This document shows, piece after piece, positions 2,551-22,817 of a stretch of DNA of 45,778 nucleotides. The stretch is from a virus: positions 1 to 45,778 of the IMG/VR virus record IMGVR_UViG_3300021478_000050. One strand, given 5' to 3'. Both the position numbers and the translations under genes were made by a program. Numbering within the stretch: the stretch's first letter is position 1; the number at the start of each line of letters is the position of its first letter. The notes under the pieces were generated by a model that was not told the DNA's origin, made no database searches, and was given only the letters and a program-made list of their open reading frames with translations.

Positions 2551-2937
2551 CTACCCCTCCCCGCCCATCACGAATACCGGCGACTTGAGTTCCGTCATGC
2601 CTCGCTCCCGGCATAGCTTAGCACTGTGAGGACTGTCCGCGATAACCAAGAATCCACGTACTTGTGCCTCTTTGAGAAAGTCAAGCATATCATCAGCTAG
2701 TTTCTCTGCCACACCTTTGCCGCGCGCGGATGGCCTAAGCCACAAGGGTCCGGTGTAAGGCAGTAATTGGAAGCAGTGTATACCGACGATACCTTCATCA
2801 TCCTCTGCTAGAAGAATTCGCGAGGTGACTCGATTTAGGCTCCAATATCCACGTACTTCTAGGATGCTTTCAATCATTTCCCAATCGGACTCTTCACATG
2901 CAATTCCGTCTATCCAGCGATATCGCACCTCGCTCAC
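2551..2937 (-). CDS. GNAT-family N-acetyltransferase (128 aa)
   Basis: The protein matches the GCN5-related N-acetyltransferase fold in length and order. Strands at about residues 40-60 (RILLAEDDEGIVGIHCF) are followed by the acetyl-CoA pyrophosphate-binding motif LRPSARGKGVAEKLADDML (about 70-88, core R-G-K-G-V then a helix). A late strand FLVIADSP follows, then an SAKLCRERGMTEL helix typical of the C-terminal GNAT motif. GNAT enzymes transfer acetyl from acetyl-CoA to an amine; the substrate here cannot be told. The gene overlaps the stop of the 1495-residue spike gene as ATGA and lies among virion genes, so a virion protein, a sugar, or a host protein are all possible targets. The family call is good; the role is unknown. 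Confidence 0.75.
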   Translation of the reverse strand: MSEVRYRWIDGIACEESDWEMIESILEVRGYWSLNRVTSRILLAEDDEGIVGIHCFQLLPYTGPLWLRPSARGKGVAEKLADDMLDFLKEAQVRGFLVIADSPHSAKLCRERGMTELKSPVFVMGGEG

Positions 2938-5900
2938 GGCAGCTTCCCACTCGGCGCACCCGGCGCTCCTCCGCCTATCGGACCCAGCATCAGAATCGCG
3001 CCCTCGCTGCCTCGCAACTGAATCGTCGAGACTCCCGCGCTGGTGGTGCCGTCTGCGAGCAAGGGATAATAGATTCCACCGAGGGCAATCGGCTGCGAAT
3101 ACGTGTCCAGCTCCACGTTCTTCGTCGGGAATTTCTTGTCGCGGTACAGGATGATCGCCTTCGTATAGTCGCGGCGATGCAGATTCGCGCAGCGCCCGGC
3201 GAAGTCACCCGTCTCTGACACGTTGTCGCAATCGCTGTGAGCCAGCCCTGAGATATAATCGGGAGTGCCGCCTGTCTTCCACGGCATCACCCGCGCCCCA
3301 CTGCTCAACCCGCCTGTATTAGGGATGCCCACGTCCACCGCCATCGCGGGGAACCATGTCGCCCAGAGGAACACGCTGGCCACCGAGGGCGTAGCGCCTT
3401 GGGCCTGATGCATTGATTGTACACAGTGAGCTTCGTTGCCGGACGAATAGGAGTTCGCCGCAGTGGTGGTGGTGGTGAATGTAGTCCCGCTGATCGTGCC
3501 GTAGAACGTATCCCCCGTAGAAGTGGTTCCTACTCGCAGATAGCCGAAAGTGTTGTAGTCGAATGGGGTGCAACCGGCGGCGCTCGCTATCGTGATCGTG
3601 CCTGGGGCCATGCCCTGAGTGATATTCGACGTGATTGTGGTCGCCGGTCCATAGACGTAGACTTCATCGGTCAGATCGTAAATGAACGATCCCTGATTAT
3701 GGTAGGCGAACCCCGTGTTTGGATTCCCCGCGAGATAATGCTGCGCGAGGCAGGTCATCGGTCCGCGCTGCCCGCGATCCCAGTAGTGAGTTCCGGTGTT
3801 GTAGACTCCAGTGTTTCCAAGACTGCCGACATAACTGTTGCTTCCACTGTTCGGCCAGTCGTAGCACATCTCCGAAGCCGGGATGTTCGTCGCATTATTC
3901 GCCGTGAGCATCGCGTCGTAAGTAGTAGAGCCGTTTACGGTATAGTCAAAGCTGTTCGGCTCCTCCTGCTGCGGCGCGTATGACGTGTACAGAGTGCTCT
4001 CCGCGTAGCACCAATCTAGCACGTAGCACACCGCGACGTGTGTCTGCGCGTTTCCGCCTACCAGGAAGTGAACGCCAAACATGCTGTGCCAGTCGCCCGC
4101 GATTCTTGTAAAGACGGCGTTCTTGTTAGTGACCCAGTTCGCGTCGGTCGAAATCTCGATCATGTTGGCGAGCCGGTCGTCGGTGGGCCAGTTCGGCGCG
4201 TCGTCGAACATCACGCCCTCGGGAGTGCCGGTCAGGAACGTCTCCAGCCACGGTGCCATTGTTCTGACGCCGAGCTGGATGTCGCTCGGGTTCATCAGGG
4301 TGTAGCTATTGTTGAAATTGGCCGAGCGGCCCTGCTGTAGGAAGCGCGCGGTCTGCCCTGCTGGCGGATTCGCGTTGTAGAGTAGCCGCCCGGCATTGAT
4401 GAAGCACGAAGTTCCGTTCGGCGCGTTGCCGGGGCAAGCGGACTGCGCCACAGCCCAGCCTCGATTGAGCCCTCCGGTGAGTTGCGTGTCTCCCTTAACC
4501 GTCGTATAGATTGGACTGGTCGATTGGCCGCTCACCACGGCGCGGACCCAGAATTTTGTCTTGGAATTGTTCACCGAGGTCTGTGCCCAATCGGATGGGG
4601 GGTAGAAATAGGCTTGGCCTGTTGCTGTGAGGCCGGAGGTCCCGTCCGTGTGTAGTGTCAGCGTGGACCATGCCGACCCATTCCAGTATTGCCATGTGAC
4701 CGAGCCGCCTACGCGCGCCGTGGCGATCACGAAATTCATCTGATCGAACGGCTCCATGTAGCCTACGTACAGCGTATCTGAAATGGCCGTCGATCCCCCG
4801 GAATAGCTGTTGGTCGTCACGTCGGTGAACACTCCGCTGACTGAAGTAAAAACCCCGCTCCCGTTGTCGAACACGTCGAACTTATCCCGCTGAGTCCAGA
4901 TGTTGTGATTATAGTCTTGGCTCTGATGGATGAGCATTTGCTCCATCACGAAGCCGTTCGCGACGGCAAACTCCTGAAGGTTGTAGAAATCCGCGATATG
5001 GTTAGCCACGTTGGGATTCGCAGTGACATCGGAACCTTCGATGTAGAGCACGATATAGACTTTACCGTTTATATTCTCGCAAAAAGCCCCACCGTTGGCA
5101 TTGTAGGACACCAGATAGTCAAAGAGATTGCTTCCCCAATTACAAATCCCGGCTCGGTTGCCGACCAGCTCCAAACTCACCGCTCCGTACCATGCACTCA
5201 TATCCGAGATGTGCGGGTAGTGGGGCGTGTGCGCGGGAACCGGAACGCTGTAGCACGTGTTCGCATTGAAGGCTTTTACAAAATTCGCAAACACCTGCCC
5301 GCTCGATTCATTCCCTAGCCCGGCGGTGGCGGTGAAGGTAATCGTCGATCCCGACACCGTGGCTATCTGCCACAGCCTGTTGTATCCCGCCACGGTCGAA
5401 CCGCTGATCCAGAAAGACCCATATTGAACGAACGCCGCCGGAGCCGCTCCGCTTAGAGTTATTGTCGCTGTCGTGCCGCTCTCGGTAATCGAATTGATGC
5501 CTTGGAAGCTGGCATAGTTCAGGTCAGCGCCGATATTCTTGAAGCACGCCTGTGCCGGGTTCACATTGACGTGATTACCCGGACCAGACCCGCTCACGTC
5601 CGGCCCGATCGCCGGGAAGGGAATCGTCGTGTGTCCTATCCCATCGTTGTACCAGAAGGGCTTCGATGAATAATAAAACGATGTTGGGAGCGTGGTGTTC
5701 GCTGGGACGGTCTGAGCGAAAGATGATAGCCCGGTGGGGACTTCGGAGGTGCTGGCGCAAGTCGTAGACCATCCAGGATCGCTCGAATTGCCGCACCATC
5801 TGATAGCGGCGGTCACCGTGTCGTAGTTTCCCCAAAAATACATCGTGGGCGCAGTGTTCAGGTCGTTGTAAACAGTGCTGAAGTTACAGGCTTGGCTACC

Positions 5901-7421
5901 CGCCCATCCCAGAGCGTAGATGGAAAGCGGCCCGGTGGACCCACATCCCGTGTTATCCACATTCGAGGAGGGAATATCCTTGTAAGTCGTATGGTAACCA
6001 GTCTCGCCGAGCACGTTGCCGATCAGATTGTAATAGCGATTCCCCGCCTCGATATCCGCGACCATCGTGCTTTGAGTCTTAAACGGCCCATCCCTGCCAG
6101 CCCAGTAATTGCGAAATCCGGTGGTCATCCAGCCCGTGCCGTGGATATCGTCACCAGCGAGCTTCGCTCCGACATTCCCCTCGAATAGGTTAAAGTACGA
6201 CCCATCCTGGTGATCCGCGTAAGAGTCCGATTGCTCCCAGGCGGGCGCGGTGTTGTTGGCGGTATAGAAATTGTCAGTCGCGAAGTTATAGATGAACACG
6301 TTCCCAGCGCCGCCTGTTATCATCTCAGGCGATGCAGTATGCTGGAATATGTTGTTGGCCACCAAAACGTCGAAGGACGGCCATCCTACCTCGATACCAT
6401 AACTGGCGCTTGTTCCATTCGACCCGTAGATGTAGTTATTCTGGAAGGTGAGATGGGCTGTCTGGTAAGTCCAGATGCTGTTCTGGTACGATGGAGCGCC
6501 TTGGTTGATGGTTCTGACTCCAGTGACCCAGCAGTTCTCAGCCCAAGCGAAAAATATCAGCGTGCCTCCGGGGCCATCCGTCGTCAGGCTGGCATCGAGC
6601 GTCAGATTCTCAATGCCGTCGTCAACTATGGGAAGATGGCTTACCCAGCCCGCTTGCGGCGTGGACGCAGCCGACCAGATAGGAGAATATAGTCCAGGAG
6701 CAATCCCTACCGCTCCACCCGCCCCGCCGCCGGGAATCGAAGTCACCGTCACGATTTGAACTTGGCTATTCCCGACTGGGCCGCTCAGACCGCCTTGCTG
6801 TGAGCAGTCGCCGAGGACTCCGTGATTCTGGCAATTCCATATCGCCTGTCCGGGATCGCTTCCGGGGTCGGCTTGCCATACAGCCAACAGGGAGCCTACC
6901 TGGAGGTTCGTCGTGCTGGAGAGGGTAATCGAAGTTGCGCCCTTCGCGTAGCCCGCCGTCCAGTTCGCCGTGTTCGGCAAGCCGTCGTGCATTTCAAAGT
7001 TATCTCCATTGAAGATGCAGATTCCTCCGCCAAGTCCAAAACAACCTCCCGACCCAGGTCCGGCAGTGAATCGAATGATAGTCTGATCCGCCCCGTCGCC
7101 GCGCAGGACGCAGTTGGAGTTCCCCGCGAAGTCTATCCTCGTGTTCAGGACAAATGTTCCGGTTAGGTGTACGTAATGATTGGTGCCGCACGCGGCGATG
7201 GCGGTGTTTATAGTCGCCGCCGATGCCGGTGTTCCGACTGTTCCGTAGCCGGTGATTGTCGAACCGGATTGCGTCCAGGTTGCATCGGGAATGCCGCCGA
7301 CGACTCCCGCACCGGCCCAGTCGATCGCGCGGCTGGGGGAGATTACCCCGGACCAGTTCTGGGCCATCGCGGGGACGCAGGAGATTATAAACAGCGACAG
7401 AATCGAGCCTAATCGCCTCAT
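2934..7421 (-). CDS. Exported beta-helix plus glycoside-hydrolase-like spike (1495 aa)
   Basis: The start is the ATG at 7421, overlapping the previous stop as ATGA; the frame is open further upstream but that would overlap the preceding gene. Residues 1-21 form a Sec signal peptide (MRRLGSILSLFIISCVPAMA, cut before QNWSG). Residues about 30-640 look like a right-handed parallel beta-helix of the pectate-lyase type (LRGDGADQTIIRF, then repeated N-x-I/F-Y rungs such as LTFQNNYIYGSN). Residues about 730-1495 resemble a TIM-barrel glycoside hydrolase with acidic EGVMFDDAP near 1070 and a C-terminal beta-sandwich ending IQLRGSEGAILML. A beta domain with the motif YWNGSAWSTL is inserted at about 885-965. 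About 25 cysteines are present in the mature protein. Likely role: binding and cleaving a surface or soil polysaccharide. Substrate and exact family are unknown. Confidence 0.75.
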   Translation of the reverse strand: MRRLGSILSLFIISCVPAMAQNWSGVISPSRAIDWAGAGVVGGIPDATWTQSGSTITGYGTVGTPASAATINTAIAACGTNHYVHLTGTFVLNTRIDFAGNSNCVLRGDGADQTIIRFTAGPGSGGCFGLGGGICIFNGDNFEMHDGLPNTANWTAGYAKGATSITLSSTTNLQVGSLLAVWQADPGSDPGQAIWNCQNHGVLGDCSQQGGLSGPVGNSQVQIVTVTSIPGGGAGGAVGIAPGLYSPIWSAASTPQAGWVSHLPIVDDGIENLTLDASLTTDGPGGTLIFFAWAENCWVTGVRTINQGAPSYQNSIWTYQTAHLTFQNNYIYGSNGTSASYGIEVGWPSFDVLVANNIFQHTASPEMITGGAGNVFIYNFATDNFYTANNTAPAWEQSDSYADHQDGSYFNLFEGNVGAKLAGDDIHGTGWMTTGFRNYWAGRDGPFKTQSTMVADIEAGNRYYNLIGNVLGETGYHTTYKDIPSSNVDNTGCGSTGPLSIYALGWAGSQACNFSTVYNDLNTAPTMYFWGNYDTVTAAIRWCGNSSDPGWSTTCASTSEVPTGLSSFAQTVPANTTLPTSFYYSSKPFWYNDGIGHTTIPFPAIGPDVSGSGPGNHVNVNPAQACFKNIGADLNYASFQGINSITESGTTATITLSGAAPAAFVQYGSFWISGSTVAGYNRLWQIATVSGSTITFTATAGLGNESSGQVFANFVKAFNANTCYSVPVPAHTPHYPHISDMSAWYGAVSLELVGNRAGICNWGSNLFDYLVSYNANGGAFCENINGKVYIVLYIEGSDVTANPNVANHIADFYNLQEFAVANGFVMEQMLIHQSQDYNHNIWTQRDKFDVFDNGSGVFTSVSGVFTDVTTNSYSGGSTAISDTLYVGYMEPFDQMNFVIATARVGGSVTWQYWNGSAWSTLTLHTDGTSGLTATGQAYFYPPSDWAQTSVNNSKTKFWVRAVVSGQSTSPIYTTVKGDTQLTGGLNRGWAVAQSACPGNAPNGTSCFINAGRLLYNANPPAGQTARFLQQGRSANFNNSYTLMNPSDIQLGVRTMAPWLETFLTGTPEGVMFDDAPNWPTDDRLANMIEISTDANWVTNKNAVFTRIAGDWHSMFGVHFLVGGNAQTHVAVCYVLDWCYAESTLYTSYAPQQEEPNSFDYTVNGSTTYDAMLTANNATNIPASEMCYDWPNSGSNSYVGSLGNTGVYNTGTHYWDRGQRGPMTCLAQHYLAGNPNTGFAYHNQGSFIYDLTDEVYVYGPATTITSNITQGMAPGTITIASAAGCTPFDYNTFGYLRVGTTSTGDTFYGTISGTTFTTTTTAANSYSSGNEAHCVQSMHQAQGATPSVASVFLWATWFPAMAVDVGIPNTGGLSSGARVMPWKTGGTPDYISGLAHSDCDNVSETGDFAGRCANLHRRDYTKAIILYRDKKFPTKNVELDTYSQPIALGGIYYPLLADGTTSAGVSTIQLRGSEGAILMLGPIGGGAPGAPSGKLP

Positions 7422-9418
7422 GGGAATCTTGTCAGGCCGGTAGCGACAAAGGAGAACAGGTCCACGTTCAGGAACGAGTTTGACGCCGTGACATCGTTCC
7501 CTTCCGTGATGAATGGATACACCTGAGTGCTGGTCGCGACGTTGGTAGTCAGCGTCTGCGGCGCGTTGGCATCCAGAGTGAATGTGATCTGTCCCGAGAC
7601 GAGGCACGTAATCGACAGCAGGTGCCAGTTCGTATCGACGGTGTAGGTCGTGCCGCCTGTCGTGCAGGTGCTCGCGGCGCACGTGACAACCTTGAAGGCC
7701 GCGTCGGCTATCCCAGCGTTCGTGTCGTACCGCAGATAGAAGCCATTGGCGATCTGCGAGACGCCATTCGCTGCATCCGAAGTACCTATATAGGTACGGT
7801 TATTCGTAGTCTGACCGAGCTTGAAAATGAAGGTCATCGTCCAGCCGGTATTTCCGCCGACAGCGCCGATCGAGCCGATATTCGCCGCCGAGGAAAGCCG
7901 GATGTCTATCAAGCTCGACGCCGTCGCGCCGCTGGCCAACTGGTTGATCCCGACGTGAGGGTACACGCCCGCGATCTGTGCGTTGGTCGCGCTTCCGGAC
8001 GCGCCTAGATTCCATCCAAGGTCGCCCACTTCGCCCGTCGTATTCGGAAGATGGGCTATGAACTCGTCCCTGAGCTGGATGGTGGTTCCCGCTGTGTCCA
8101 GCCCGACTCCGGTGTTGCAGGTGAATGCTCCCGTAGCGGAATTAAACTGAAGCGCGCTGGTTGTAGAGCTACAGCTCGGGAACGCCGCGATGTCCGGGAG
8201 CGTCACCGCGCGATAATTCACGTTGTCACTATAGATATAGCTAAGCCAGTGATTCGGCACGATCTGCGTGGCGTTCCCGTTGATCGTCGAGGTTGTCGGA
8301 GTGATCGTCACGAGCCCGGTGTTGATATTCGCCAGCGCGAAGTTGAAATTGTTGGTGAATCCCGCCGACCCGGCCTGCGGCAGCGTGACCGAAACCGCGC
8401 CTGAATTGCTCATGGTATCCACATTCTCGCGGTCTACATTCAGCACCGTATAACTCGCTGCGGTCTGTGCGTTGATTGGAACGCCCGGCTCGCACCATGC
8501 TGGCGCGGTAGCAACGCCCCCGCTGGGAGTGGAGCACCACAGGAATGGGACACTTGGCGTGGTTGGCGCGGCGATTCCGCTAAGCGTGTTCGTGGTCCCC
8601 GCCGCTGAATAATACACGCCACTATACTGAGCTGAACTATTGATCGTCCCCGAGCCGACGGTGATTGTCTGACAGCCGAACGAGTGCGTTCCGGTGGAGT
8701 AGCTGAGCGCTTGATTTCCACTGCCGCAGTTGTTTACTGCGAGCCACACGGGGACGGCTGCGTTCGCGCCTTGCAACAGGAAGTCCTGCCCGCCTGCGGA
8801 GGCGATCCGTGCGAGCGCTCCGCCGGTCACCGAGAGCAGATCTCCGTTGGTAGTCAGCGCTGTTTGTCCAAGCGCGATTGTCCCCAACAGATCGCTGAAC
8901 GATGGCTGTACGCACACTGGGATCAGCCCTGCAAGCAATCCTGTGGCGTAGAAGTGCGTGGAGCAAGTGGTCCCGGCAGGGACATCCCCCGCTACCATCA
9001 GACGGCACGTGGGAATGCCTCCGATGCCGTTCGGCGCGGCGATGAAACAGTTCGCGGACTGCGTCGAGAAGTTCACCTGCTCGTTGCCGCCGGAAGGGTT
9101 AGTCCAACTGAACACACCGGAATTCTGGAAGTTGAGCGTGGTCTGAGTGACGTTGGTGACTCCGTTGGTCTGAACAATAGGCCCGCCACCGCCGCCGCCC
9201 CCGCCTGCCAGGATGCTCCACGAGTTCGTCCCCGAGCAGAATTTGAACGACGCGGCGGTAATATCCCACACGAGAGGCATCTGTATGTTGGGACCACCGG
9301 GGGTGCAGTTGGGTAATGGCTCAGACTCGGAGACGATCAGCGAGAAGCGGCGCTGCTGCGCTGAGGCTGAGACGCTCGTGAGCGCCGACAATGCGATTAA
9401 TAGCGGCAGTTTACGCAT
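7418..9418 (-). CDS. Exported tail-fibre-like protein with C-terminal lectin-like domain (666 aa)
   Basis: Residues 1-20 are a textbook signal peptide (MRKLPLLIALSALTSVSASA, cut before QQRRF). A Gly-rich hinge (GGGGGGGG) lies near residue 75. The middle carries fibre-like beta repeats and stretches such as VTLPQAGSAGFTNNFNFALANI, as seen in phage fibre shafts. From about residue 450 (DEFIAHLPNTTGEVGDLGWN) a concanavalin-A-like jelly-roll domain is likely. It is built of alternating strands (WTMTFIFKLG, FYLRYDTNAG, WHLLSITCL), which is the usual receptor-binding C-terminus. Fifteen cysteines are present, unusual for a cytoplasmic virion protein. The stop overlaps the next start as ATGA. Presumed to bind a glycan; the call to an exact family is not made. 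Confidence 0.75.
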   Translation of the reverse strand: MRKLPLLIALSALTSVSASAQQRRFSLIVSESEPLPNCTPGGPNIQMPLVWDITAASFKFCSGTNSWSILAGGGGGGGGPIVQTNGVTNVTQTTLNFQNSGVFSWTNPSGGNEQVNFSTQSANCFIAAPNGIGGIPTCRLMVAGDVPAGTTCSTHFYATGLLAGLIPVCVQPSFSDLLGTIALGQTALTTNGDLLSVTGGALARIASAGGQDFLLQGANAAVPVWLAVNNCGSGNQALSYSTGTHSFGCQTITVGSGTINSSAQYSGVYYSAAGTTNTLSGIAAPTTPSVPFLWCSTPSGGVATAPAWCEPGVPINAQTAASYTVLNVDRENVDTMSNSGAVSVTLPQAGSAGFTNNFNFALANINTGLVTITPTTSTINGNATQIVPNHWLSYIYSDNVNYRAVTLPDIAAFPSCSSTTSALQFNSATGAFTCNTGVGLDTAGTTIQLRDEFIAHLPNTTGEVGDLGWNLGASGSATNAQIAGVYPHVGINQLASGATASSLIDIRLSSAANIGSIGAVGGNTGWTMTFIFKLGQTTNNRTYIGTSDAANGVSQIANGFYLRYDTNAGIADAAFKVVTCAASTCTTGGTTYTVDTNWHLLSITCLVSGQITFTLDANAPQTLTTNVATSTQVYPFITEGNDVTASNSFLNVDLFSFVATGLTRFP

Positions 9419-9421
9419 ATT

Positions 9422-9832
9422 CTATGTCCCCGTGAACTCCCACCAGTTTGCCGAATCCGGGACGAAGATCGCCGTCTGGAGATAGTTGTCTATCGTATAG
9501 TTCGCTCCGCCTTCGATCTGCCCGGATGCCGGGACGAACGTCGCTGAGCCAATCCCCAAGTCGATCTTCTTGGCCAGTACGATGCGTGATTGCCCTGCGA
9601 GCGGGGAGGGAAGGGTGATAGTCACTCCAAGTGCGCCGGTGGTGATGATTAAAATGGTCAACGGGCGGACTAGGCTCAGGATTGTGTTGGAGTTGATGAC
9701 TTGGACATCCGCCGAGCCGAGCAACTTGTCGATCAGCGCGAGGTCGGCGTTCAGCTCTGCGCCCCATTGGTTGATGTCGGAGCCTACTGTGGGAGGTGTC
9801 AGTCCGATCGTCGGCGTGGGATTATTCGGCAT
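9422..9832 (-). CDS. Small fibre-associated beta-strand protein (136 aa)
   Basis: The start ATG at 9832 overlaps the upstream stop as TGATG; longer in-frame starts lie inside the upstream gene. The N-terminal 40 residues contain a short helix (DINQWGAELNADLALIDKLL) common at the base of phage fibre and baseplate-attached proteins. Residues 55-136 are beta-rich (GVTITLPSPLAGQSRIVLAK, then ATFVPASGQIEGG and a final NWWEFTG), a pattern repeated at the C-termini of many phage fibre and head-fibre proteins. There is no signal peptide, in contrast to both flanking genes. It could be an adaptor or a short fibre. No enzyme motif is visible. Confidence 0.65.
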   Translation of the reverse strand: MPNNPTPTIGLTPPTVGSDINQWGAELNADLALIDKLLGSADVQVINSNTILSLVRPLTILIITTGALGVTITLPSPLAGQSRIVLAKKIDLGIGSATFVPASGQIEGGANYTIDNYLQTAIFVPDSANWWEFTGT

Positions 9833-12609: not shown

Positions 12610-13715
12610 GTTGACCCCCGATAGATCGTCACGAGATCAGCTACGGTCGGCGCAACCAGTTGAATGTTGACTACCGTGCCCGACGCCGAAGCGCCTTCCA
12701 CTGTCGCCCAGATGTGAAAGGGCATCTTCGTGCCCGTGCTTCCGAGTGTCCAAGTCGGGCCAATAACCTGCGTCGTCGTAGTCGAGGCTACGTCAGTTGT
12801 CGCGCCGCCCGTCATAGCGGTTGCTGCCGTGTTCATCGAATAGCTGGCGGTCAAGTTAGTCGCTCCGTTCGTGGCCGTTTGAATGTTCCAAGAGTTCGCG
12901 GTTGCGCCTGTGGCCTGCCCCACGACTCCGTTACAGTCTATCGTCCAGCTTCTCGCGAGAAGGGGCAGAGTAAAGGTCAGCGTGCTAATTGTTTGCGCGG
13001 TCGTGCAGGATGTGTTGGTGCCGCCTGTACCACAGGTCCAATCAGCGTTTATGATGCGAGCGGGGTCGGGATTAAAGAATACGTGCTGAGCAGCATCACT
13101 AACCATGGCACCATAAGCAGTGGGAGCATCTAAAGGAGGCATTAACCATTGAAGCGACGCAGCTAGGGAGGGCTGTGCTAGCCAGCCTTCGAAGTTCCCC
13201 GTACAAGATGGCGGCGGTCCATTCGTGCATCCGTTGGATACATAGAGATTCAGCGCTTGCGCTGCCGTTCCATAGTTCGTGGTCGAGGTCAATGCTCCGA
13301 TCCCTGCTTGGGGATTCTGTAATTGGAACTCGGTGCCATCGTAGGTAGCGCAAGCGGTGGCCCCGAGAAAGATGTCGTTAGCAACTAAAGCTAGAACGCC
13401 GCTAGGTCCTTTGGTGATTGTCTTGGCACCTAAACCGCTGATGTTTAGAGTCGCTCCGGGTCCGCTGTTAGATACGGCGGGCTGCCAACAATAGATGACA
13501 CTACCTCCAGTTACAAGGCTGGTGATTGCCGGAGACGGCGTTAAGATCTGCGTTTGAGCCGTTCCTCCTCCCGTGCCACCTACAATAGTTCCGGCACCGC
13601 CTGGGGTGATGCTACCACCGCTACTGCCAGACGGGTTAGGGCTAATATTCGATTGGGCATTAGAAATTGATGCACAGAAGAGAATCACTGTGGCTAGAAT
13701 AAATAACTTTCGCAT
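12594..13715 (-). CDS. Exported fibre-like protein (373 aa)
   Basis: Residues 1-20 are a Sec signal peptide (MRKLFILATVILFCASISNA, cut before QSNIS). A cysteine is in the hydrophobic core, but the bases around it do not give a lipobox. The mature N-terminus is a Gly/Ser linker (NPSGSSGGSITPGGAGTIVGG). The rest is beta-rich with Thr/Ala/Asn-rich repeats and no helical domain. The sequence DPARIINADWTCGTGG near residue 225 begins a C-terminal jelly-roll-like module. No catalytic motif is seen. It sits between a 147-residue surface-type protein and the 925-residue spike, with which it overlaps by 16 bases, so a trimeric fibre or exported surface protein is the best inference. Confidence 0.65.
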   Translation of the reverse strand: MRKLFILATVILFCASISNAQSNISPNPSGSSGGSITPGGAGTIVGGTGGGTAQTQILTPSPAITSLVTGGSVIYCWQPAVSNSGPGATLNISGLGAKTITKGPSGVLALVANDIFLGATACATYDGTEFQLQNPQAGIGALTSTTNYGTAAQALNLYVSNGCTNGPPPSCTGNFEGWLAQPSLAASLQWLMPPLDAPTAYGAMVSDAAQHVFFNPDPARIINADWTCGTGGTNTSCTTAQTISTLTFTLPLLARSWTIDCNGVVGQATGATANSWNIQTATNGATNLTASYSMNTAATAMTGGATTDVASTTTTQVIGPTWTLGSTGTKMPFHIWATVEGASASGTVVNIQLVAPTVADLVTIYRGSTCTAY

Positions 13716-13722
13716 CGTGGCC

Positions 13723-14166
13723 TCACTGGATAATCAGAGTCACCAAAGCTCCGTCCCCGGCATTGTCGGCGTCAATCGAATAGCGATAGGGGCTGAACAC
13801 GTTGCGATTTAGCGGAGCGCTGGCAAGGAACAAGGTAGCTCCAGGCACCAAAACGAATACCATAGCTCCGGTGTCATCCCGATTGCCGGTACCAGAGCCT
13901 ACGCCGTCGCGCATTATATAAACATTACCGCCGTTGTTCTGCATTCCATGCGTCGCGCCGGGCTTGAACCCTTGGAAACATATCTGTTGTGCCCGGACAG
14001 TGTATTCGTCGCCACCGCCGGAGCTGAGAGTCTCGGGCTCGTTTGGCTCAGGAGACGTGGCTTCTATGTTGGACATGACTTCCACGGGGGTCCCCGGCGT
14101 GACGACTTTAATAAAGCCAAGCGGCCAGTCTGGCCCCTGCTTGTCGAGATGAACTGAGTTTGGCAC
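13723..14166 (-). CDS. Putative tail/fibre structural protein (147 aa)
   Basis: The frame begins at GTG 14166 directly after a perfect AGGAGG. There is no signal peptide. The protein is beta-rich: FIKVVTPGTPVEVMSNIEA, a polar loop with NEPETLSSGGGDE, EYTVRAQQICFQGFKPG, AMVFVLVPGATLFLASAPL, and a terminal YSIDADNAGDGALVTLIIQ. The ending DADNAGDGALVTLI is a recurring C-terminal strand pattern in small phage structural proteins. I infer a head-decoration or tail-associated beta-sandwich, but the family is not named. Seven bases separate it from the next gene. Confidence 0.6.
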   Translation of the reverse strand: MPNSVHLDKQGPDWPLGFIKVVTPGTPVEVMSNIEATSPEPNEPETLSSGGGDEYTVRAQQICFQGFKPGATHGMQNNGGNVYIMRDGVGSGTGNRDDTGAMVFVLVPGATLFLASAPLNRNVFSPYRYSIDADNAGDGALVTLIIQ

Positions 14167-14174
14167 CGATCCTC

Positions 14175-14483
14175 CTAACTAAACTGGAAATTTCCGCTCG
14201 CTTTGACGTATTTGAGCGTCGCGCCATTCGCCAGAGTTGACGTGTCTGCCGGACCTACATGCAATCCCAGCAGAAGAGTATCCGTCGGACCCGACCCTGC
14301 CGGGAACGGCCCACGCTCGCCGGACTCCCCCATCGAGTTTACCCTAGCCAGCAGTGCGTCGTGTTTATCTTGGAGCGCGTAGTGCTGATTGAGCAACTGG
14401 CGGAACGAGCGCTCCAGCGACTCAGGGTCTTTAAGTTGGGAATGCGAGGGGAACCAACGTGAGTTTTTAGATTGATCTGACAT
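14175..14483 (-). CDS. Short coiled-coil fibre or adaptor protein (102 aa)
   Basis: The start overlaps the hub stop as TAATG. Residues about 18-50 form a predicted coiled coil (ESLERSFRQLLNQHYALQDK then HDALLARVNSMG). A short collagen-like Gly/Pro segment (GERGPFPAGSGPTD) follows, then a beta-rich C-terminus ending in YVKASGNFQFS. Coiled coil plus Gly-Pro linker plus small beta head is the usual plan of a short trimeric fibre or of an anchor that links a longer fibre to the hub. There is no signal peptide and no cysteine. Confidence 0.6.
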   Translation of the reverse strand: MSDQSKNSRWFPSHSQLKDPESLERSFRQLLNQHYALQDKHDALLARVNSMGESGERGPFPAGSGPTDTLLLGLHVGPADTSTLANGATLKYVKASGNFQFS

Positions 14484-17400
14484 TAGATTGGACCTCCATC
14501 CTGCTCGCCCAAGTTGTGAAAGATGCTGTATGGGCCTGATCTGGACCAGGAGCCAATATGAAGTTCGCTGTCGTCGAGGAAAATCTGGAATTTCGCAGTG
14601 GAGACCGCTTGGAAATTATACAGCAGCCCCTTGTTCGCACTCAGCATGAACAAAGCTTTGCGATACTGCCCGCCGCTGGACGGGATCGTGATTGGCGCTG
14701 GGTCCTGTCCGTCGAAGGTGGTAATTGTAAGCGTAATCGGCGCTAGACTCGACCATGCGAGCAGGATGCGTGGCAGGTGTTTAAATCCGTCGAGCCCGAA
14801 CGATGTCCCGAAGGTGTAGAAAGTCTGCGTGTACGCGGGCTGGATGACAAACGACGGATGCCAGATGTGGAGCTGCGTCGGCGCGGACTGTACGGTGAAG
14901 TCGTCGGTCCACGAGAACGCAAGGCCCATGAAGTCTGAGACGACGATGCCACCGGCGCTCAGGGGGAGACGGGTCCGTGCTGCTCCGGCAGGCACGGCAA
15001 TCGGCGCAATCACCTGCGCTCCGAGAGACACGCCGGTTACGGTCAGCACTGCGGAGTTCGGCGTCGAGTCGAGGAAGATGTCGCCCCATTGCTTCGGCGC
15101 GCGGGAGTCGCCGCCGTCGAACTCGGCAGTGTCCAGAGTGCAGATGATCGGTCCGCCGAGGTCGTTCGTGTTATCGGTCTGGACCGCAACGCGGCCATCG
15201 ACAGTTCCCATGATGAGTTCGTCGTAGCGCAGCGTGTTCGTCAGCAGGGTTCCGGCGGGCTGCTGGGGGTGCAGGAAGGCGCTCACTACTGGAGTGTAAG
15301 CATCCCCGCACCATGCACCGCGACGGGTATCGAGGACTAGCTGGCGGTAGGTTCCAGATGAATCCTGATAAGTGGCGTACAAGTAGTAGTTAGAGTAAGT
15401 AAGTCGGAAGCTCCCAGCACGCGAATAGTCGGGAGGATTAACGGTCTGTCCCATGTAGGTGACTGACTTACCCAATACACCCTCATGGGGGAAAATATTA
15501 TAGAGGTCTCCATCAGTCAGCGATCCTTTCGACGACGATTGAATCCCGTCCTTGGCCCACCAGTAGATAGACACTCCATCGGTACAATGTCCGTACGGCG
15601 CGGCGAGCCCTCTCGGGAGCGGCTGCTGCACGTATGCATACCGCTGCGACGGATTATCCGGCTGCGGATACAACGCCCACCAGCGCTCCGGCGACGCGAC
15701 GAATGCGAGCCCATCGACGACTTCCCCTCCGAGCAGTGGCTCGCTCGGCGGGACGATCTCCTCGTTGTAAGTATCCGGCGCGGAATCCGGAGCGTAGTTC
15801 TTGGCGAAGTACAGATTCCCAGCGCGCAGCGGGTCTCCGCAGGCGAATACCGTTCCGTTAACGTCCGGTCCGAACATATATGGGAGATGCTGGTTAGCTA
15901 TCGCAGGTTCGTAGATCGCAGCGGTGACGCTCGCCTGCGTCCCGGCGTTTTCCTCGAACTCGAAGCGATAGGTAGTCCCGGAGATCAGCACCGGGCGTTT
16001 GTAAAGCGTATATACGTTTAGCCCGGCGAGCTGGACCAGGTTCCCCGGCAGGAAGCGCAGGATGTTCGTCGGCGATGGGACTGTCACGAGCGCGGTCGTG
16101 CCGACGACACTTGCTCCGGTTACGCTAAATGGCACGTCCACCGACGGCCACGGCTCGAAGTTGTCGAAGTCCAGCACGTCGCCTGCACCGACCGCATTGT
16201 CGTCGAAGTTGTCGATGAAGGTGGCGTTGGACGACGGCGTGGAGCCGACGTAGCGGTACGATGTCACCGATCCGCCATAGCGCTCGATGTCCCACGTGTC
16301 GATCTGCGCATCGTAGGCGGAGGATGGCAGGTACACCGTCACTTGCTCCCGCCGGGGGCTTATTCCATAACGTGTCGCTGGCGATGGATTCCCTCTCGCG
16401 CCGGTCACACTCGACCGAGGCCGCACACGGTACAGGTACGGCGCTCCGATATCCCCGACATCCGCAGCATACCCGCCGAATATATTCACTGCGTTGTCGT
16501 GGGCGACGTTGATCGTCCCGGAGGCGTTCCATAGGAACTGAATCTTGGTGACATTCTGGAGGGATTTGGTGATATCGCTGCCGACACGGGTGAGTTCCGC
16601 GATGCTGAAGACGATCTGCGCCCACTGCGACGCCCCCGGAGGAGTCATGGCGCTAGATGAAGAGTGGAGTTGATTACCACTCGCGGCGGTGGCTTCTTCG
16701 TCGATGGTTGCACGCTGGTCGATGGTCTGCGCGGCAGCGAGTTGGGTGGACGTGTTGGCCACGGCTGCGGTGATGTCGGACGGGCGCACGGTGTAGTAAT
16801 AGAAATTCTGCGTGAATGAGCCATCGCCGATGTCGAATAGTATCTTCAGCTCCGTCAGATTCGCCAAGTTGTCCACGAGGATGCCGAAGGAGATGAGATC
16901 GTCCGGACGAAAGGGATTCCCGCCAGTCACGAAGGGATTTGTGATCGTCGCGGTCTGCGTCCCGATACCGACGGTTACAGCGTAGGTGAAATCCGTCTCG
17001 GCGATGGCCTGTCCCGCGAATATCTTCCCGAGCGTCTGGATTGTCGGCAGGGAGGTCATGGTATCGGCGGTCGTGTGATTTACAGTAGTGGAGGTCTCGA
17101 TCGACACGGAGCCATCGGGGCCGACGCTGACACTCCAGACAATGCACACTTCGGAGCCGATCTTGATGAGCGCGCCACGACGCAGCGTGGACAACACATT
17201 GTCTGCGTAGATGGAGTTGGCTACTCCGGAGCCCGACGCGAGTGTGTTAGGTACGATGATGCAATGCCCGATGGTCCCTGAGAAATAGTATATAGATGCG
17301 ATCGCGAGGGCTGTCGGGAGCGCAGGGAACACGTCACGGACCATCGTTGCGCTGCCGGAGACGCCGCCGGAGAGATAGTAGACCGTGATGCGTGCGGAGG

Positions 17401-18541
17401 TCACGAAGGCCGTGACGCTGCCGACTGTCTGGAGGTCTCTGCACTGTACAGCCACTCCGAAATTGGCATTGGCATTGATGTCCGGCTGGGTAAAGTAGGT
17501 TGACCAAGTGTCTCCATTGCCGCCATAGACGGCATACTGGTCCGAACCCGGCCAGAATCCTCCAAGCGCGTGATTATTTCCCTGAGCGACGCCTCCTTTG
17601 ACAATCAGAATCTGCGTATCCGCAATGGAAGACGCAAACGCATGTCGTAGGACTTCCGCTTTGATTCCAGTGATCGTCGCGCCGACGGGGATAGTTGAGA
17701 AGCTGAAGTTGGTTATTAAAAGTAGATGCGAAGAGTGGTTGTAGGTGAGCGCGCACTGCCCGCCGCCGGAGCCTGTGGCTGTCCATGCGGTGTTGCCAAG
17801 GGGGCCATCGGCGGAGGATGCTCCGGTTAGTGGACCCTGTGACCCGGCGGTCCCGCCCGCGCCGGTGAGTGCAATGGACATCCAGCGCTGGTAGGATACC
17901 GTCGCTCCGACTTGCGCGCTGAGCAGCATTGCATTCGCGGGGTCGGGGAGCACTGTTCCAGCGGTGTCAGCGGCGATACGATTCCCCGAGACTGGCGCTC
18001 CGGCGGTTCCGCCTTGAGCCCACGAGAGGCTTGATAGAGTTGCTTGCCGCATCGCGGACGGCGCGGCGTCGGGAGCGAACTGTGGCTCGGCGATGCCAAC
18101 TTTCGACTGGGTCACATTGTTACTGCCGTCCGGCGCGGAGAACTTCTGGTAGTCAGCACCGTTCGCGATGTATTGATATGGATTTACCGACTGCGCGGGG
18201 CGGAAGGGAATCAGCACTGAGCCCGGTCCGCCGGGAGCCAGCACGCCAACTTGGGTTCCATTATCGAGCCATATCATGTCGTTCGAGTCGCGTGCCAGAT
18301 AGCGCGGATTAGCGTCGGTAGAGAGGCCGACGTATGCTCCGAGGTCGGTGATGGGATTTCCGCCGGTAGCGAATTTCTGCACCTGTCCAGGGCGCGTCTG
18401 GACGGACGAGTCGAGTATCGACCTAACATTAACGGCCATTGCAAACTTCTCTGGAGAGAGTGTGTCGGGAGAGCTATTCAGCTTCATCCCTCCGAAGCGA
18501 AATCGGAAGCCTTCTTGCGGCCTGAAGAACGATGGAGGCAT
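14483..18541 (-). CDS. Tail hub / nozzle-type structural protein (1352 aa)
   Basis: This large beta-rich protein has no signal peptide. Its N-terminus (FRFRFGGMKLNSSPDTLSPE, then MAVNVRSILDSSVQTRPG) matches the opening pattern of short-tailed-phage hub or DNA-stabilisation proteins related to P22 gp10. Those begin with a G-G-x-n-x-s-P-x-x-L-x-p-x-x-a-x-x-x-x-N-V element and a 'tRPG' strand, then form beta-propeller and nozzle domains. Middle and C-terminal parts show propeller-like blades (GVSIYWWAKDGIQSSSKG; GRVAVQTDNTNDLGGPIICT; LDTRRGAWCGDAYTPVVSAF). Only eight cysteines are present in 1352 residues. The start overlaps the upstream stop as TAATG, coupling it with the connector gene. The family assignment rests on pattern and position, so it is moderate. 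Confidence 0.65.
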   Translation of the reverse strand: MPPSFFRPQEGFRFRFGGMKLNSSPDTLSPEKFAMAVNVRSILDSSVQTRPGQVQKFATGGNPITDLGAYVGLSTDANPRYLARDSNDMIWLDNGTQVGVLAPGGPGSVLIPFRPAQSVNPYQYIANGADYQKFSAPDGSNNVTQSKVGIAEPQFAPDAAPSAMRQATLSSLSWAQGGTAGAPVSGNRIAADTAGTVLPDPANAMLLSAQVGATVSYQRWMSIALTGAGGTAGSQGPLTGASSADGPLGNTAWTATGSGGGQCALTYNHSSHLLLITNFSFSTIPVGATITGIKAEVLRHAFASSIADTQILIVKGGVAQGNNHALGGFWPGSDQYAVYGGNGDTWSTYFTQPDINANANFGVAVQCRDLQTVGSVTAFVTSARITVYYLSGGVSGSATMVRDVFPALPTALAIASIYYFSGTIGHCIIVPNTLASGSGVANSIYADNVLSTLRRGALIKIGSEVCIVWSVSVGPDGSVSIETSTTVNHTTADTMTSLPTIQTLGKIFAGQAIAETDFTYAVTVGIGTQTATITNPFVTGGNPFRPDDLISFGILVDNLANLTELKILFDIGDGSFTQNFYYYTVRPSDITAAVANTSTQLAAAQTIDQRATIDEEATAASGNQLHSSSSAMTPPGASQWAQIVFSIAELTRVGSDITKSLQNVTKIQFLWNASGTINVAHDNAVNIFGGYAADVGDIGAPYLYRVRPRSSVTGARGNPSPATRYGISPRREQVTVYLPSSAYDAQIDTWDIERYGGSVTSYRYVGSTPSSNATFIDNFDDNAVGAGDVLDFDNFEPWPSVDVPFSVTGASVVGTTALVTVPSPTNILRFLPGNLVQLAGLNVYTLYKRPVLISGTTYRFEFEENAGTQASVTAAIYEPAIANQHLPYMFGPDVNGTVFACGDPLRAGNLYFAKNYAPDSAPDTYNEEIVPPSEPLLGGEVVDGLAFVASPERWWALYPQPDNPSQRYAYVQQPLPRGLAAPYGHCTDGVSIYWWAKDGIQSSSKGSLTDGDLYNIFPHEGVLGKSVTYMGQTVNPPDYSRAGSFRLTYSNYYLYATYQDSSGTYRQLVLDTRRGAWCGDAYTPVVSAFLHPQQPAGTLLTNTLRYDELIMGTVDGRVAVQTDNTNDLGGPIICTLDTAEFDGGDSRAPKQWGDIFLDSTPNSAVLTVTGVSLGAQVIAPIAVPAGAARTRLPLSAGGIVVSDFMGLAFSWTDDFTVQSAPTQLHIWHPSFVIQPAYTQTFYTFGTSFGLDGFKHLPRILLAWSSLAPITLTITTFDGQDPAPITIPSSGGQYRKALFMLSANKGLLYNFQAVSTAKFQIFLDDSELHIGSWSRSGPYSIFHNLGEQDGGPI

Positions 18542-19950
18542 TACTGTGTCGCTCCTGACAGCGCTGGCGTCGCAATCGGATTCATATGCGCCTCGCGCTG
18601 CGAGAGTTCTAAGATCGCTGTCGTGTACTCCCCTAGTTCCGCTAGCTTCGAGTTATAGACCATCGCTTGCTTCATAAATCGCTGGAACAACGGCACCGTG
18701 GACAGGAACTCCTCGCCTCCTTGCTTCCAGCTTGCGACATGCTGTGCATAATCAAGCACCGCGTCGAGTTCGTCGCGACCGCATTGCACGAGATCAGTCC
18801 CGGCGACTGGCATTGGCGCGTTCTCGACCACCGTCGCGGTCATGGAGTGTACGATTCCGGGGATCGGCGCAAGCGCAAGCATATTCAGCCCCGCGTGCAG
18901 AGCCACAGATGGCTTGTTCTGCGCTGCCGCTTGCCAGCCGGTGTTGTAGAGGTCGGCGGAATGCACTGAGTCGATCTGCAAGGCTACATCGGCGATACGC
19001 ATAGCTAAGAGTGCGGGTGCATCAAGCAACATTTTCAGTCCCATGCGATAGCGTTGCTCGCAGTACGCCGCGCGGGTAGGGTCTCGGGACAGCGACTCTC
19101 GCGAGAGCAGGTCCGCGAGCGCGCCCCATTTGATAACGTGTGTCCAGTCGTCGGGGATCGCGAGGGTCGTCGGCGTCGTCACGCTCAGCGTCGGTCCTGC
19201 TTCGACGGTCAGGAGTTCGTAATTCCCAGCCCCGCCCGGAGGACGGTCCGTGTCGAAGCTGATCGGCGGCTGCGTGGACATCAGATACGTCTGCGGCGTC
19301 CCGGCGGGAGTGATTGTGTAGTTGCGATTGTAGGACTGCTCTGCCCACGTGTCGTCTGGCCACACGGTCGATGCACTCACGCCGCCGTAGAGACTGAATC
19401 CGTACGGCCCCATGCCGTAAGGGCCGACTCCGTAGGGGATACCAATGAGCGCCTGCGGGAGGTAGGCCATGCGGCGCACGTCCAGCACTGTATCGGGCAG
19501 CGCGATCCGTCCCGCGACTGCGGGGATCAGGCGACGAGTAATCGTGCAGCCAGTGATCGAGAGGATCTCGTCGCGCCGCCGCTGGATCGCGTTCAGCAGA
19601 TCGTCGGCGGTGAATTGAGTAGACGCTCCGGTCCAAGGGTTCCAAGCGATCGGCTCCAACAGGTGATATTGGAGCTGCGTGTATAGGTCGGTGTCATGCA
19701 GAGTCAGAGGGCGCAACGTGTTCGGAAGATTCGTCGCGTCGGTAAGATCGTAAAACGCCACTCCCGGCTGGGAATTGAACAGGAAATCTCCGCGCCAGTA
19801 GGCTGTGAAGGCGTTCCACGTGCGCAGGGATTCCTGAATCAGCGCGGTAAGTTCCGCCGAGGACCAAAAGACCATCGAGCCGTCGTAGAGACGGTTCGCC
19901 AGCTCTTGTCGGCAGAACGACAGTGTCGCGTAACTGTACGGATTCGGCAT
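18541..19950 (-). CDS. Head-tail connector / tail structural protein (469 aa)
   Basis: The N-terminal helical segment (LSFCRQELANRLYDGSMVFW, then SSAELTALIQESLRTWNAFT) resembles the start of adaptor-type head-tail connectors of short-tailed phages. A beta region around residues 55-90 and a second helical block around 100-125 (ADDLLNAIQRRRDEIL) follow. A Gly-Tyr repeat, GIPYGVGPYGMGPYGFSLYG, at about residues 170-189 is encoded at roughly 19385-19445 and probably forms an exposed loop. The C-terminal third is helical (WGALADLLSRESLSRDPTRA). The shared plan with the protein at 29248-30252 suggests two successive connector rings. It starts one base after the small lysine-rich gene ends. Confidence 0.6.
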   Translation of the reverse strand: MPNPYSYATLSFCRQELANRLYDGSMVFWSSAELTALIQESLRTWNAFTAYWRGDFLFNSQPGVAFYDLTDATNLPNTLRPLTLHDTDLYTQLQYHLLEPIAWNPWTGASTQFTADDLLNAIQRRRDEILSITGCTITRRLIPAVAGRIALPDTVLDVRRMAYLPQALIGIPYGVGPYGMGPYGFSLYGGVSASTVWPDDTWAEQSYNRNYTITPAGTPQTYLMSTQPPISFDTDRPPGGAGNYELLTVEAGPTLSVTTPTTLAIPDDWTHVIKWGALADLLSRESLSRDPTRAAYCEQRYRMGLKMLLDAPALLAMRIADVALQIDSVHSADLYNTGWQAAAQNKPSVALHAGLNMLALAPIPGIVHSMTATVVENAPMPVAGTDLVQCGRDELDAVLDYAQHVASWKQGGEEFLSTVPLFQRFMKQAMVYNSKLAELGEYTTAILELSQREAHMNPIATPALSGATQ

Positions 19951-20106: not shown

Positions 20107-20109
20107 GGG

Positions 20110-20331: not shown

Positions 20332-20345
20332 TGTCAGTCTCCTTT

Positions 20346-22817
20346 TTATGGATCATGCATTGCAGTACATTCGAGAGTTCCGCTCGTAGCCCCACCCGTG
20401 GCTCCGTTGGTAATTCCGGCGATAATTTGGGAAGTGGACTTAGTTAGATTCAGAACGGTCATTGTGTTCACGTTCCCGCCGGTTATTGCACAGGTGGGAG
20501 AATAGCTCGTGTCGGGCCACGGGTAATTCCATGTGAGAGTTGTGTTGCATGTAGCGCCCGCTCCAGCGCCGGTCGCACAAGCGGCTCCACGGATACTCTG
20601 GACCAGCTTGGGAGCTACAAATGTCCCCCCGGCGACACCGTTAGATTGCGTAGAGAAGGTGACGTTGCAGAACACGTTGTTCGTGTCGTTAGAGCCCCAG
20701 CCGATGTCCGTCGTGTTGTAGAGCGACGTTCCGTTGCAAATCTTGTTATCCGTCTGAGCCGTGGTGTCGCCACCGACTATGAATCCGCCGCCACCGACGC
20801 CTCCGGTGGCTGTCGTGTTCCAGTTGGTGAAGTTATTGCGCCGCGAGTTGCCGTCCAGGAGAATGGCTATAAAGGTGGAACCGGCAGAATGCACTTGGAT
20901 GTTGGTGAAGTTGTTCCAACTGGAGTGCTGTAACTTCATGCCGCGATCAGCTCCCTTGACGGAGGTGATATCGCTGATGTTGGAGCCGTTGTCGAAGTAG
21001 AAGCCGGGGCCGAATGTGCCGGATTCGGTGCTGAACCATCGTTCGGCCTGCATCCCGGTCTGTATCGCCGCGTAAAGATCGTTGAATCCCGTGGTGGAGC
21101 CGATCTTGCTGGAGCGCAGGTCGGTGAAGCGGTTCTTATAGCCATAGCTGGCATTCATTCCGAAGGCGGTGGTTTGTACTCCCACGAAGTCCAAGTTGCG
21201 AACTTCGGAGTTAATGGCAAATTCCAGCAGCAGAGCGTTCGTGGTGGCTCCGGTCTGGCCGGTGAGATCCAAGGTGAATCCACCGATTCTGACGTTCAGC
21301 AACGGGGCGGTGTACTTCTGAACCTTGGCTGTGTTCGCCGTGAGAAAGCTCTCGTACATCGGGTCCGCCGTGGTGATGGTGTCGCCTACGAGGTTATCTA
21401 CCCGCGTAGTCTCGTAAGTGGTTATCGCCAGAGCGTCCGATATAAGAATGTAGTCTCCGATGCTCAATCCGAGAGCTGCGGCTCCTCCGCCGACCAGCGC
21501 CACCGTGTTGCTACCCTCGCTGGAGTTGGAGGTCAGGTTCGATGTTGTGCCTCCCAGCGTACCTACGAAGGAGAGGCAGTTGAACGACGAGCTTCCCGTG
21601 CAGGTGATGATGGATGTAGATCCGGAGCCTTGCAGGCAGGCGTTCGAGGAGTTCCAAGAGACGCTGCTGCTGATGGAAATGGTCGTAGCTGGAGGGATGT
21701 TCACGCAGGTCCCAGCGGAAGTGGCGGCGGTGATAGCGTTGGTCAGGCCCGTCTGCGTCTTGGGATATTGCGAACCGTCGAGGTTTATTGCACCGTTCAG
21801 CGTACCGACTGTATCGGTCCCCGTGAGAGTCACATTACCACTGTCGGTGCGTGTTCCGGTGACGGTGCCGGTGATGACTGGAGAGGTCAGCGTAGGCCCA
21901 GTGTAGGACGCGCCCCCGGCAACAGTGCCGGTGATGGAAGGGGAGGTTAGGCTTTTATTCGTAAGTGTCTCAGTGCCGGTGTCTGTGCCGGTTGTCGTCG
22001 GCGAGGTGATCGTCGGCGTGTTGATCGTCGGAGAGGTCTGAAGGATAACCGTACCGCCGGTGCCGGACACTGCTGTTAGCCCATTGCCGTTTATCCGTAG
22101 CACGTTCCCGTTTACAGAGGTATCGAAGACCTGAGATTCGCCCACGCCGAGCGAGTGCCAGTTGCCATCAGCCTCCAGTACGAATTCAAATTGCTCGGAC
22201 TTCCCGGCGGTAGGAGTCAGAAGCGGAGGGTTGATGAAGTTCGCGGGCCATGCGAAAGTCCACGGTCCACCCGCACCTTGGGTCAAGGTGACGGCGATAA
22301 GCTGCCCGGTCGTGGCTCCTGTGACGACGCTGGAAGTGACATTACCGGTTAGAGTCATGGAGAACAGGGAGCAGGAGTTGGCGGTGAAGGTTGGAGTCGC
22401 GTTGAAAGCGATAATGCACTGCGTCAGGGACTGCTGGACTGGATCGTTTAGGATGATGTCAGGGTAGGTCACTGGAGTCGGCATCCCCGCGCCGGAGGTA
22501 ATTACATCGTAGTGGCCATTCGCACTGTAAAATTGAAATTGTCCTCCCGTTTGGGCCACAAAAGGGTTTGCCAATGGAGTCAGCGCATTATCGGCATAGA
22601 TCGTCGCGAGCCCGCCGCCATGAATATTCACAGTTACAAGACACTGCGGAAACGATCCTTGAACTTGATTATTACTTTGTAGTCCTGATGTTACGACCAG
22701 CGTTGCGCCAGCTTCACACCACCCTGACGCGCTCTGATTAGCAAGTAGCGAACTAGGCCAAAGAAACACGGCCAGCGCGAGAAGGCTCCATAGTGCGATG
22801 TGATTTAGACGACGCAT
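20346..22817 (-). CDS. Exported tail fibre with beta repeats and beta-helix (823 aa)
   Basis: The start is the ATG at 22817 with GGAG eight bases upstream; it overlaps the glycosyltransferase stop by 13 bases. Residues 1-27 form a signal peptide (MRRLNHIALWSLLALAVFLW, then PSSLLAN). After a beta-rich N-terminal domain, residues about 265-345 hold fibre-shaft repeats of the type T-N-K-S-L-T-S-P-S-I-T-G and T-L-T-S-P-V-I-T-G-T-V, common in phage fibres. From about residue 355 (TGLTNAITAATSAGTCVNIP) the pattern is that of a right-handed beta-helix (LNVRIGGFTLDLTGQTG; NFTNIQVHSAGSTFIAILLD). A small terminal domain from about 740 ends in LECTAMHDP. Fourteen cysteines are present. Likely receptor binding; no catalytic residues identified. 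Confidence 0.75.
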   Translation of the reverse strand: MRRLNHIALWSLLALAVFLWPSSLLANQSASGWCEAGATLVVTSGLQSNNQVQGSFPQCLVTVNIHGGGLATIYADNALTPLANPFVAQTGGQFQFYSANGHYDVITSGAGMPTPVTYPDIILNDPVQQSLTQCIIAFNATPTFTANSCSLFSMTLTGNVTSSVVTGATTGQLIAVTLTQGAGGPWTFAWPANFINPPLLTPTAGKSEQFEFVLEADGNWHSLGVGESQVFDTSVNGNVLRINGNGLTAVSGTGGTVILQTSPTINTPTITSPTTTGTDTGTETLTNKSLTSPSITGTVAGGASYTGPTLTSPVITGTVTGTRTDSGNVTLTGTDTVGTLNGAINLDGSQYPKTQTGLTNAITAATSAGTCVNIPPATTISISSSVSWNSSNACLQGSGSTSIITCTGSSSFNCLSFVGTLGGTTSNLTSNSSEGSNTVALVGGGAAALGLSIGDYILISDALAITTYETTRVDNLVGDTITTADPMYESFLTANTAKVQKYTAPLLNVRIGGFTLDLTGQTGATTNALLLEFAINSEVRNLDFVGVQTTAFGMNASYGYKNRFTDLRSSKIGSTTGFNDLYAAIQTGMQAERWFSTESGTFGPGFYFDNGSNISDITSVKGADRGMKLQHSSWNNFTNIQVHSAGSTFIAILLDGNSRRNNFTNWNTTATGGVGGGGFIVGGDTTAQTDNKICNGTSLYNTTDIGWGSNDTNNVFCNVTFSTQSNGVAGGTFVAPKLVQSIRGAACATGAGAGATCNTTLTWNYPWPDTSYSPTCAITGGNVNTMTVLNLTKSTSQIIAGITNGATGGATSGTLECTAMHDP

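Follow-up and report, generated by a model that had tools for sequence, protein, structure and literature searches.

Candidate Sec-exported spikes and fibres encoded in the tail module of a virus related to Acidobacteriota podoviruses

Five large, cysteine-rich proteins encoded in the tail module of a soil phage, an IMG/VR virus record, begin with Sec-type signal peptides. The record is 45.8 kb long and was analysed as a whole (hereafter, the window). We propose, with a probability of about 0.6, that the five proteins are receptor-binding spikes and fibres, some of them perhaps companion glycan enzymes, which are exported by the Sec pathway and dock on virions at lysis. Judged from the sequence, Sec export of the set is very probable and disulfide formation in it highly probable, and at least some of its members probably join the virion. 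The proposal draws on the signal peptides, an apparent selection for even cysteine numbers, the co-variation of signal peptide and cysteine pair in one domain, the place of the genes in the tail module and the recurrence of the arrangement in unrelated phages, all of which were read from sequence data.

Five signal peptides in the tail module

The window encodes a major head protein (32009-33151, phrog_9953), a portal (35600-37672) and a terminase (38139-40358) whose nearest isolates are the Acidobacteriota podoviruses Tunturi_1 and Tunturi_2 (32% identity). The five genes to which an earlier note had ascribed signal peptides are all present where it had placed them, on the minus strand, each with a signal peptide. 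We scanned the window with a rule-based scorer (basic n-region, h-region, A-x-A-type site) from each ATG, GTG or TTG in six frames, requiring at least 160 open codons. Sec-type signal peptides were found on exactly these five long frames and on no sixth. In all five, a hydrophobic core comes after the basic n-region, and Q or N is the first residue past an A-x-A-type site. OmpA and LamB were called by the same scorer, MalE and Bla lay at or just under the strict cut-off and PhoA was missed; the scorer is therefore conservative.

Protein 1 (20346..22817, 823 aa) is tailspike-like. It starts with MRRLNHIALWSLLALAVFLWPSSLLA^NQ, in which the signal peptide (residues 1-26, LLA^NQ, 22740..22817) precedes a head-binding-like domain, D2 (residues 27-125, 22443..22739), that contains Cys34 and Cys59; a putative beta-helix body follows. 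D2 defines a family in the relatives that includes Tunturi_1 gp12. Protein 2 (12594..13715, 373 aa, 8 mature cysteines) starts with MRKLFILATVILFCASISNA^QS (signal peptide 13656..13715, SNA^QS). Protein 3 (9832..12609, 925 aa, 16 mature cysteines) has a GTG start and the N-terminus VYRVLRLALFMSCLCCTAQA^NV (12550..12609, AQA^NV), and contains a TIG domain close to its C-terminus (Pfam, E=2.8e-7). Protein 4 (7418..9418, 666 aa, 15 mature cysteines) starts with MRKLPLLIALSALTSVSASA^QQ (9359..9418, ASA^QQ) and has exported relatives in contigs L002, L027 and L021 too. Protein 5 (2934..7421, 1495 aa, 25 mature cysteines) starts with MRRLGSILSLFIISCVPAMA^QN (7362..7421, AMA^QN). The cysteine counts previously given also proved correct, with 15 in the 666-residue protein, 14 in the 823-residue protein, 26 in the 1495-residue protein (25 when mature, for a claimed number of about 25) and 8 in the hub.

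An artefact of gene calling was ruled out, as no Shine-Dalgarno-like start lies past any of the signal peptides and the signal peptides are kept in relatives. Between signal peptide and body, no start codon with a Shine-Dalgarno-like sequence was found in any of the five genes; the sole alternative start of this kind lies within the signal peptide of 9832-12609. The lipobox [LVI][ASTVI][GAS]C is absent from the site in four of the five, and a weak lipobox-like IISC occurs inside the signal peptide of 2934-7421. A protein of the cassette in one relative (L006:19077-21482) has a canonical lipobox (VLSGC), so that some exported members may be lipoproteins.

Within the virion operon, the set belongs to the tail module, where it flanks the hub and tail genes, all on the minus strand. 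These comprise a conserved hub/nozzle-like protein without signal peptide (14483..18541), which served as query for finding relatives, and a conserved tail protein (18541..19950) that adjoins the D2 gene and by which the syntenic slot of D2 proteins, exported or not, can be recognised. The smaller neighbours are a family-conserved, non-exported 147-aa protein (13723..14166) and, directly upstream of protein 4, an adaptor-like protein of 136 aa, also non-exported, that contains the motif PTIGLTPPTVGSDINQWGAELNADLALID (9422..9832). The earlier statement that the neighbours lack signal peptides was borne out for 14483-18541, 13723-14166 and 9422-9832, and 14175-14483 has none either. An adaptor-like gene followed by an exported gene is an order common to the window, to L002, L005 and L006, and to gp112-gp113 of the siphovirus Tunturi_4.

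Other genes surround the cassette. Directly after it lies a GNAT acetyltransferase gene (2551-2937), whose place is kept in many relatives and in Tunturi_1 (gp34). The virion-type protein at 453-2614 and its homologues in relatives have no cysteine at all, in contrast to the cysteine-rich exported set. On the other side, the segment 22805-29251 encodes two GT9-like proteins, a Methyltransf_24, an FtsJ-like protein and a C-methyltransferase (Methyltransf_13/14), with an HNH endonuclease gene (HNH_3, 23755-24219) in their midst. Similar sugar- and methyl-modification genes were found in several relatives, and a role in the modification of surface or fibre glycans is possible.

Exported proteins in relatives and in other phages

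Among open reading frames of at least 350 aa, signal peptides were found on 5 of 13 in the window and on 3 of 234 in 13 control phages (T7, T4, lambda, P1, P22, N4, phiKMV, phi38:1, crAss001, RM378, 11b, Mx8 and phi1422; Fisher 9e-6). Two of the three control hits are themselves fibre-like exported proteins, so that exported fibres may be general among the phages of some diderm phyla. The first, p64 of Myxococcus phage Mx8 (NC_003085, 36781-37854), has a clear signal peptide and 2 cysteines. Its Mx9 homologue (OQ709411) is annotated as a putative tail fiber protein, and an N-terminal motif akin to that of p64 begins non-exported proteins of Stenotrophomonas phage BUCT555 and Bradyrhizobium phage ppBjS10J-1. 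The second, gp68 of Bdellovibrio phage phi1422 (NC_019525, 40429-42273; 614 aa, 8 cysteines), is encoded directly downstream of the tail fiber gene gp67.

The hub protein and its profile retrieved 27 related IMG/VR contigs. Most of them encode one to six large exported proteins each, in matching positions next to the tail protein/hub pair and ahead of the GNAT gene and the cysteine-free virion genes. Beyond the cassette, the parts of these contigs that were sampled encode almost no large exported proteins. Three relatives (L032, L033 and L036) have no detected exported fibre-like protein and offer a natural counterpart to the exporters as regards the hosts or life styles that may accompany export.

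Isolated phages of Acidobacteriota harbour similar sets. In the podovirus Tunturi_1, signal peptides are present on gp12, gp13, gp14 (tail spike), gp16 and gp17 (virion structural), and no obvious large fibre-like protein without an export signal was found. In Tunturi_4, they are present on gp113 (tail protein) and gp114 (virion structural). These two genes are directly preceded by gp112, which encodes a non-exported protein of 146 aa with the motif PNYGLTxPDVGxxxWGxxxNxNFxxID, of the same kind as in the 9422-9832 protein of the window. The jumbo myovirus Tunturi_5 has signal peptides on gp337, gp341 and gp342 (tail fiber) and on gp338 (virion structural). In gp337 and gp341, a fibre N-terminal motif stands immediately after the signal peptide, and slightly further on DPTxxMQAATKQYVD matches Streptomyces phage tailspikes. 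The podovirus Tunturi_3 yielded no such signal-peptide-bearing set. Product names are as deposited in the records and do not derive from proteomics; the paper describing the Tunturi phages reports no virion proteomics and does not mention signal peptides (PMC11924767).

Members of the exported set contain beta-helix, chitobiase-C, Ig-like, TIG, Big_2, GDSL and laminin-G domains, types that would be expected of proteins in contact with receptors or glycans. Pfam reports a pectate-lyase-like domain in the D2 homologue of L032, and Beta_helix falls below the cut-off in Tunturi_1 gp17. No lytic Pfam or PHROG match was obtained in a search of the exported set for peptidoglycan-lytic domains. AlphaFold2 models of proteins 1 and 4 were of too low confidence for use (pLDDT 39 and 38). 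Proteins 2, 3 and 5 have no detectable homologues among the 27 relatives and are placed by context alone. Proteins 3, 4 and 5 gave no tblastn match in phage records, nor did proteins 3 and 5 in plasmids (tblastn) or IMG/VR scans. The hub profile and protein 3, searched against genome contigs (GTDB genomes for protein 3), revealed no prophage or host homologue at the sensitivity used.

Cysteine parity and the two states of the D2 domain

Proteins that form disulfides tend to carry cysteines in even numbers. Once near-duplicates had been removed at 50% identity, the count was even in 49 of 55 mature exported proteins with at least two cysteines (p=9e-10), and in 31 of 51 conserved proteins without export signal encoded on these contigs (Fisher 7e-4); these p-values should be read with the caveat that the rows of the parity and D2 comparisons are not fully independent. 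With de-duplication at 80%, the figures were 54 of 62 and 58 of 113 (Fisher 1e-6). Cysteine content is 2.0% in exported and 0.9% in non-exported proteins. In the window by itself, the mature count is even in three of five, the odd ones being 15 (7418-9418) and 25 (2934-7421).

The D2 domain occurs both with and without a signal peptide. In exported D2 proteins, the cysteines of the motifs GWCE and FPxC are both present (10 of 10), whereas none of seven non-exported D2 proteins has both and two retain the second only (p=5e-5, with the same dependence among rows). The non-exported proteins begin at the domain itself, mostly with MQ..QGW, and are encoded next to the tail protein and the hub, in the slot that exported ones also occupy. 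In L037, an exported and a non-exported D2 protein are tandem paralogues. On the hub tree, non-exporters are found beside exporters in at least three places (L036 with Tunturi_1, L033 with L037, and L023 and L025 inside the main group). Because of this mixed placement, the split between exported and non-exported D2 proteins is not a single inherited difference. Furthermore, a Pseudoalteromonas siphophage has a non-exported D2 relative just past its tail genes. Together, the parity of cysteines and their co-variation with the signal peptide point to passage through an oxidising compartment.

A D2 profile compared with all PDB chains gave seven matches, of which five are tail spikes or tailspike head-binding domains and one is a tail fibre. 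These matches are marginal, with E values of 0.007 for 9vyg (the best), 0.056 for 9vyh and 0.18 for 7eeq. It was the only informative PDB search: single proteins gave noise, and a profile of the adaptor motif gave no match of value. A particle-binding-like domain was thus found in protein 1 only, marginally, and none in proteins 2-5.

Attachment to virions and relation to known systems

In our proposal, the proteins would be made as Sec precursors and cross the inner membrane via the host Sec machinery, with removal of the signal peptide, and would then form disulfide bonds as they fold in the periplasm, an oxidising compartment. On lysis, the mature proteins would encounter the released virions and dock on them, either by an N-terminal attachment domain (D2) or by way of small adaptors made in the cytoplasm (9422-9832 type). 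Cleavage, disulfide formation and docking after release are the parts that we infer. Since assembly takes place in the cytoplasm in known tailed phages, attachment after lysis must be assumed; for P22 and T4, it is established that completed tailed particles can take up spikes or fibres in vitro.

The earlier note had hesitated between extracellular adhesins and glycan enzymes made before lysis and fibres that acquire disulfides as they mature in the periplasm and are added to the particle when it is released. Cysteine parity and the co-variation of signal peptide and cysteine pair strengthen the part common to both, export, and the maturation with disulfides. Joining on release is favoured by three observations: D2 in one exported protein matches tailspike head-binding domains, non-exported D2 versions occupy the same tail-gene slot, and fibre N-terminal motifs stand right after the signal peptide in Tunturi_5. 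An extracellular-only role may still apply to 12594-13715, 9832-12609 and 2934-7421.

A divided set is a real though lesser prospect, and would be a sub-case compatible with our proposal: D2-type and fibre-motif proteins would be in the virion, and the enzyme-like products of 2934-7421 and 9832-12609 would be free. The particle-binding-like domain of protein 1 alone fits such a division, as does the multidomain appearance of proteins 3 and 5, which lack homologues; the operon region, cysteine richness and type of signal peptide, common to all five, argue against it. The main rival reading, itself rather unlikely, is that none of the set ever becomes part of the virion. The proteins would instead be produced ahead of lysis as adhesins, secreted or held at the surface, and as enzymes that degrade glycans, and would clear extracellular polysaccharide for the progeny or block superinfection. 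Signal peptides and cysteine parity would suit any secreted protein, and up to five highly variable proteins per genome with lectin-, TIG-, Big_2-, GDSL-, laminin-G- and beta-helix-type domains in exported members would fit this role. However, the likeness of D2 to tailspike head-binding domains and its non-exported occurrence in the same tail-gene slot speak against it, as do the motifs after the signal peptides of Tunturi_5 and the fact that the large fibre-like proteins of Tunturi_1 are all exported, which leaves that phage few other receptor-binding candidates.

Hydrophobic N-terminal helices alone do not prove cleavage, and the segments could be uncleaved membrane anchors or membrane-active segments of virion proteins, but in all five a short basic n-region is combined with an A-x-A-type site and a subsequent Q or N, which, together with cysteine parity and co-variation that point to an oxidising compartment, makes this very improbable. 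Equally improbable is that the signal peptides are functionless relics of recently captured host secreted genes: the domain types are host-like and the signal-peptide style (AQ around the site) is one that we take to be similar to that of Acidobacteriota secreted proteins, but podo-, sipho- and myoviruses alike retain the signal peptides in numerous diverged families, the cysteine pair tracks them, searches of GTDB genomes with protein 3 and of plasmids with proteins 3 and 5 yielded no homologue at the sensitivity applied, and the predicted decay of signal peptides with intact body and paired cysteines was not seen in relatives.

Returning to export followed by docking, there is about an even chance that Sec-exported, periplasm-oxidised spikes or fibres, attached only after lysis, are a feature of tailed phages whose hosts belong to several diderm phyla outside the usual models (Acidobacteriota and perhaps also Myxococcota and Bdellovibrionota). 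Tailed-phage assembly is taught as entirely cytoplasmic, and such proteins, if confirmed, would add an extracytoplasmic step to it. They would also reveal a route by which soil phages obtain oxidised, rugged receptor-binding proteins, and pipelines that file signal-peptide-bearing phage genes as host contaminants or morons would miss such proteins. Isolated phage-host pairs (Tunturi_1, Tunturi_4, Tunturi_5, Mx8 and phi1422) make the idea directly testable.

No earlier report of Sec signals on tailed-phage spikes or fibres was found in the open-licence literature searched. Exported endolysins (fOg44 Lys44, SAR endolysins) are likewise encoded by tailed phages and make use of host Sec (PMC6116005), but they are lysis enzymes, whereas the proteins of the window are fibre-like and without lytic domain. 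Lysogenic conversion proteins of the lambda Lom/Bor type are also phage-encoded, Sec-exported envelope proteins, and Lom adjoins tail genes; unlike the window set, they are small outer-membrane proteins rather than large, cysteine-rich and fibre-like. Mx8 p64 and phi1422 gp68 share with the set a fibre-like character and a signal peptide at the start, but are lone genes with 2 and 8 cysteines and no detected sequence relation to it. A like arrangement is seen in the Tunturiibacter phages Tunturi_1, Tunturi_4 and Tunturi_5 (PP887698, PP885687 and PP885688), where large proteins with signal peptides and mostly even cysteine counts are clustered, their records naming them tail fibre, tail spike, tail or virion structural proteins; unlike the window phage, Tunturi_4 and Tunturi_5 are unrelated phages of Tunturi_1's host genus with other morphologies.

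No signal peptide is known on P22-like or cyanophage Pam1-like tailspikes. Like D2 proteins, these combine a conserved N-terminal domain with a variable body and are encoded in the tail module, and their head-binding domain (9vyg, 9vyh, 7eeq) aligns, marginally, with the D2 domain of the window; here, in contrast, a signal peptide stands ahead of the domain and a cysteine pair lies inside it. Beside the exported endolysins and lambda Lom already known, the new element would be tail spikes and fibres that mature outside the cytoplasm.
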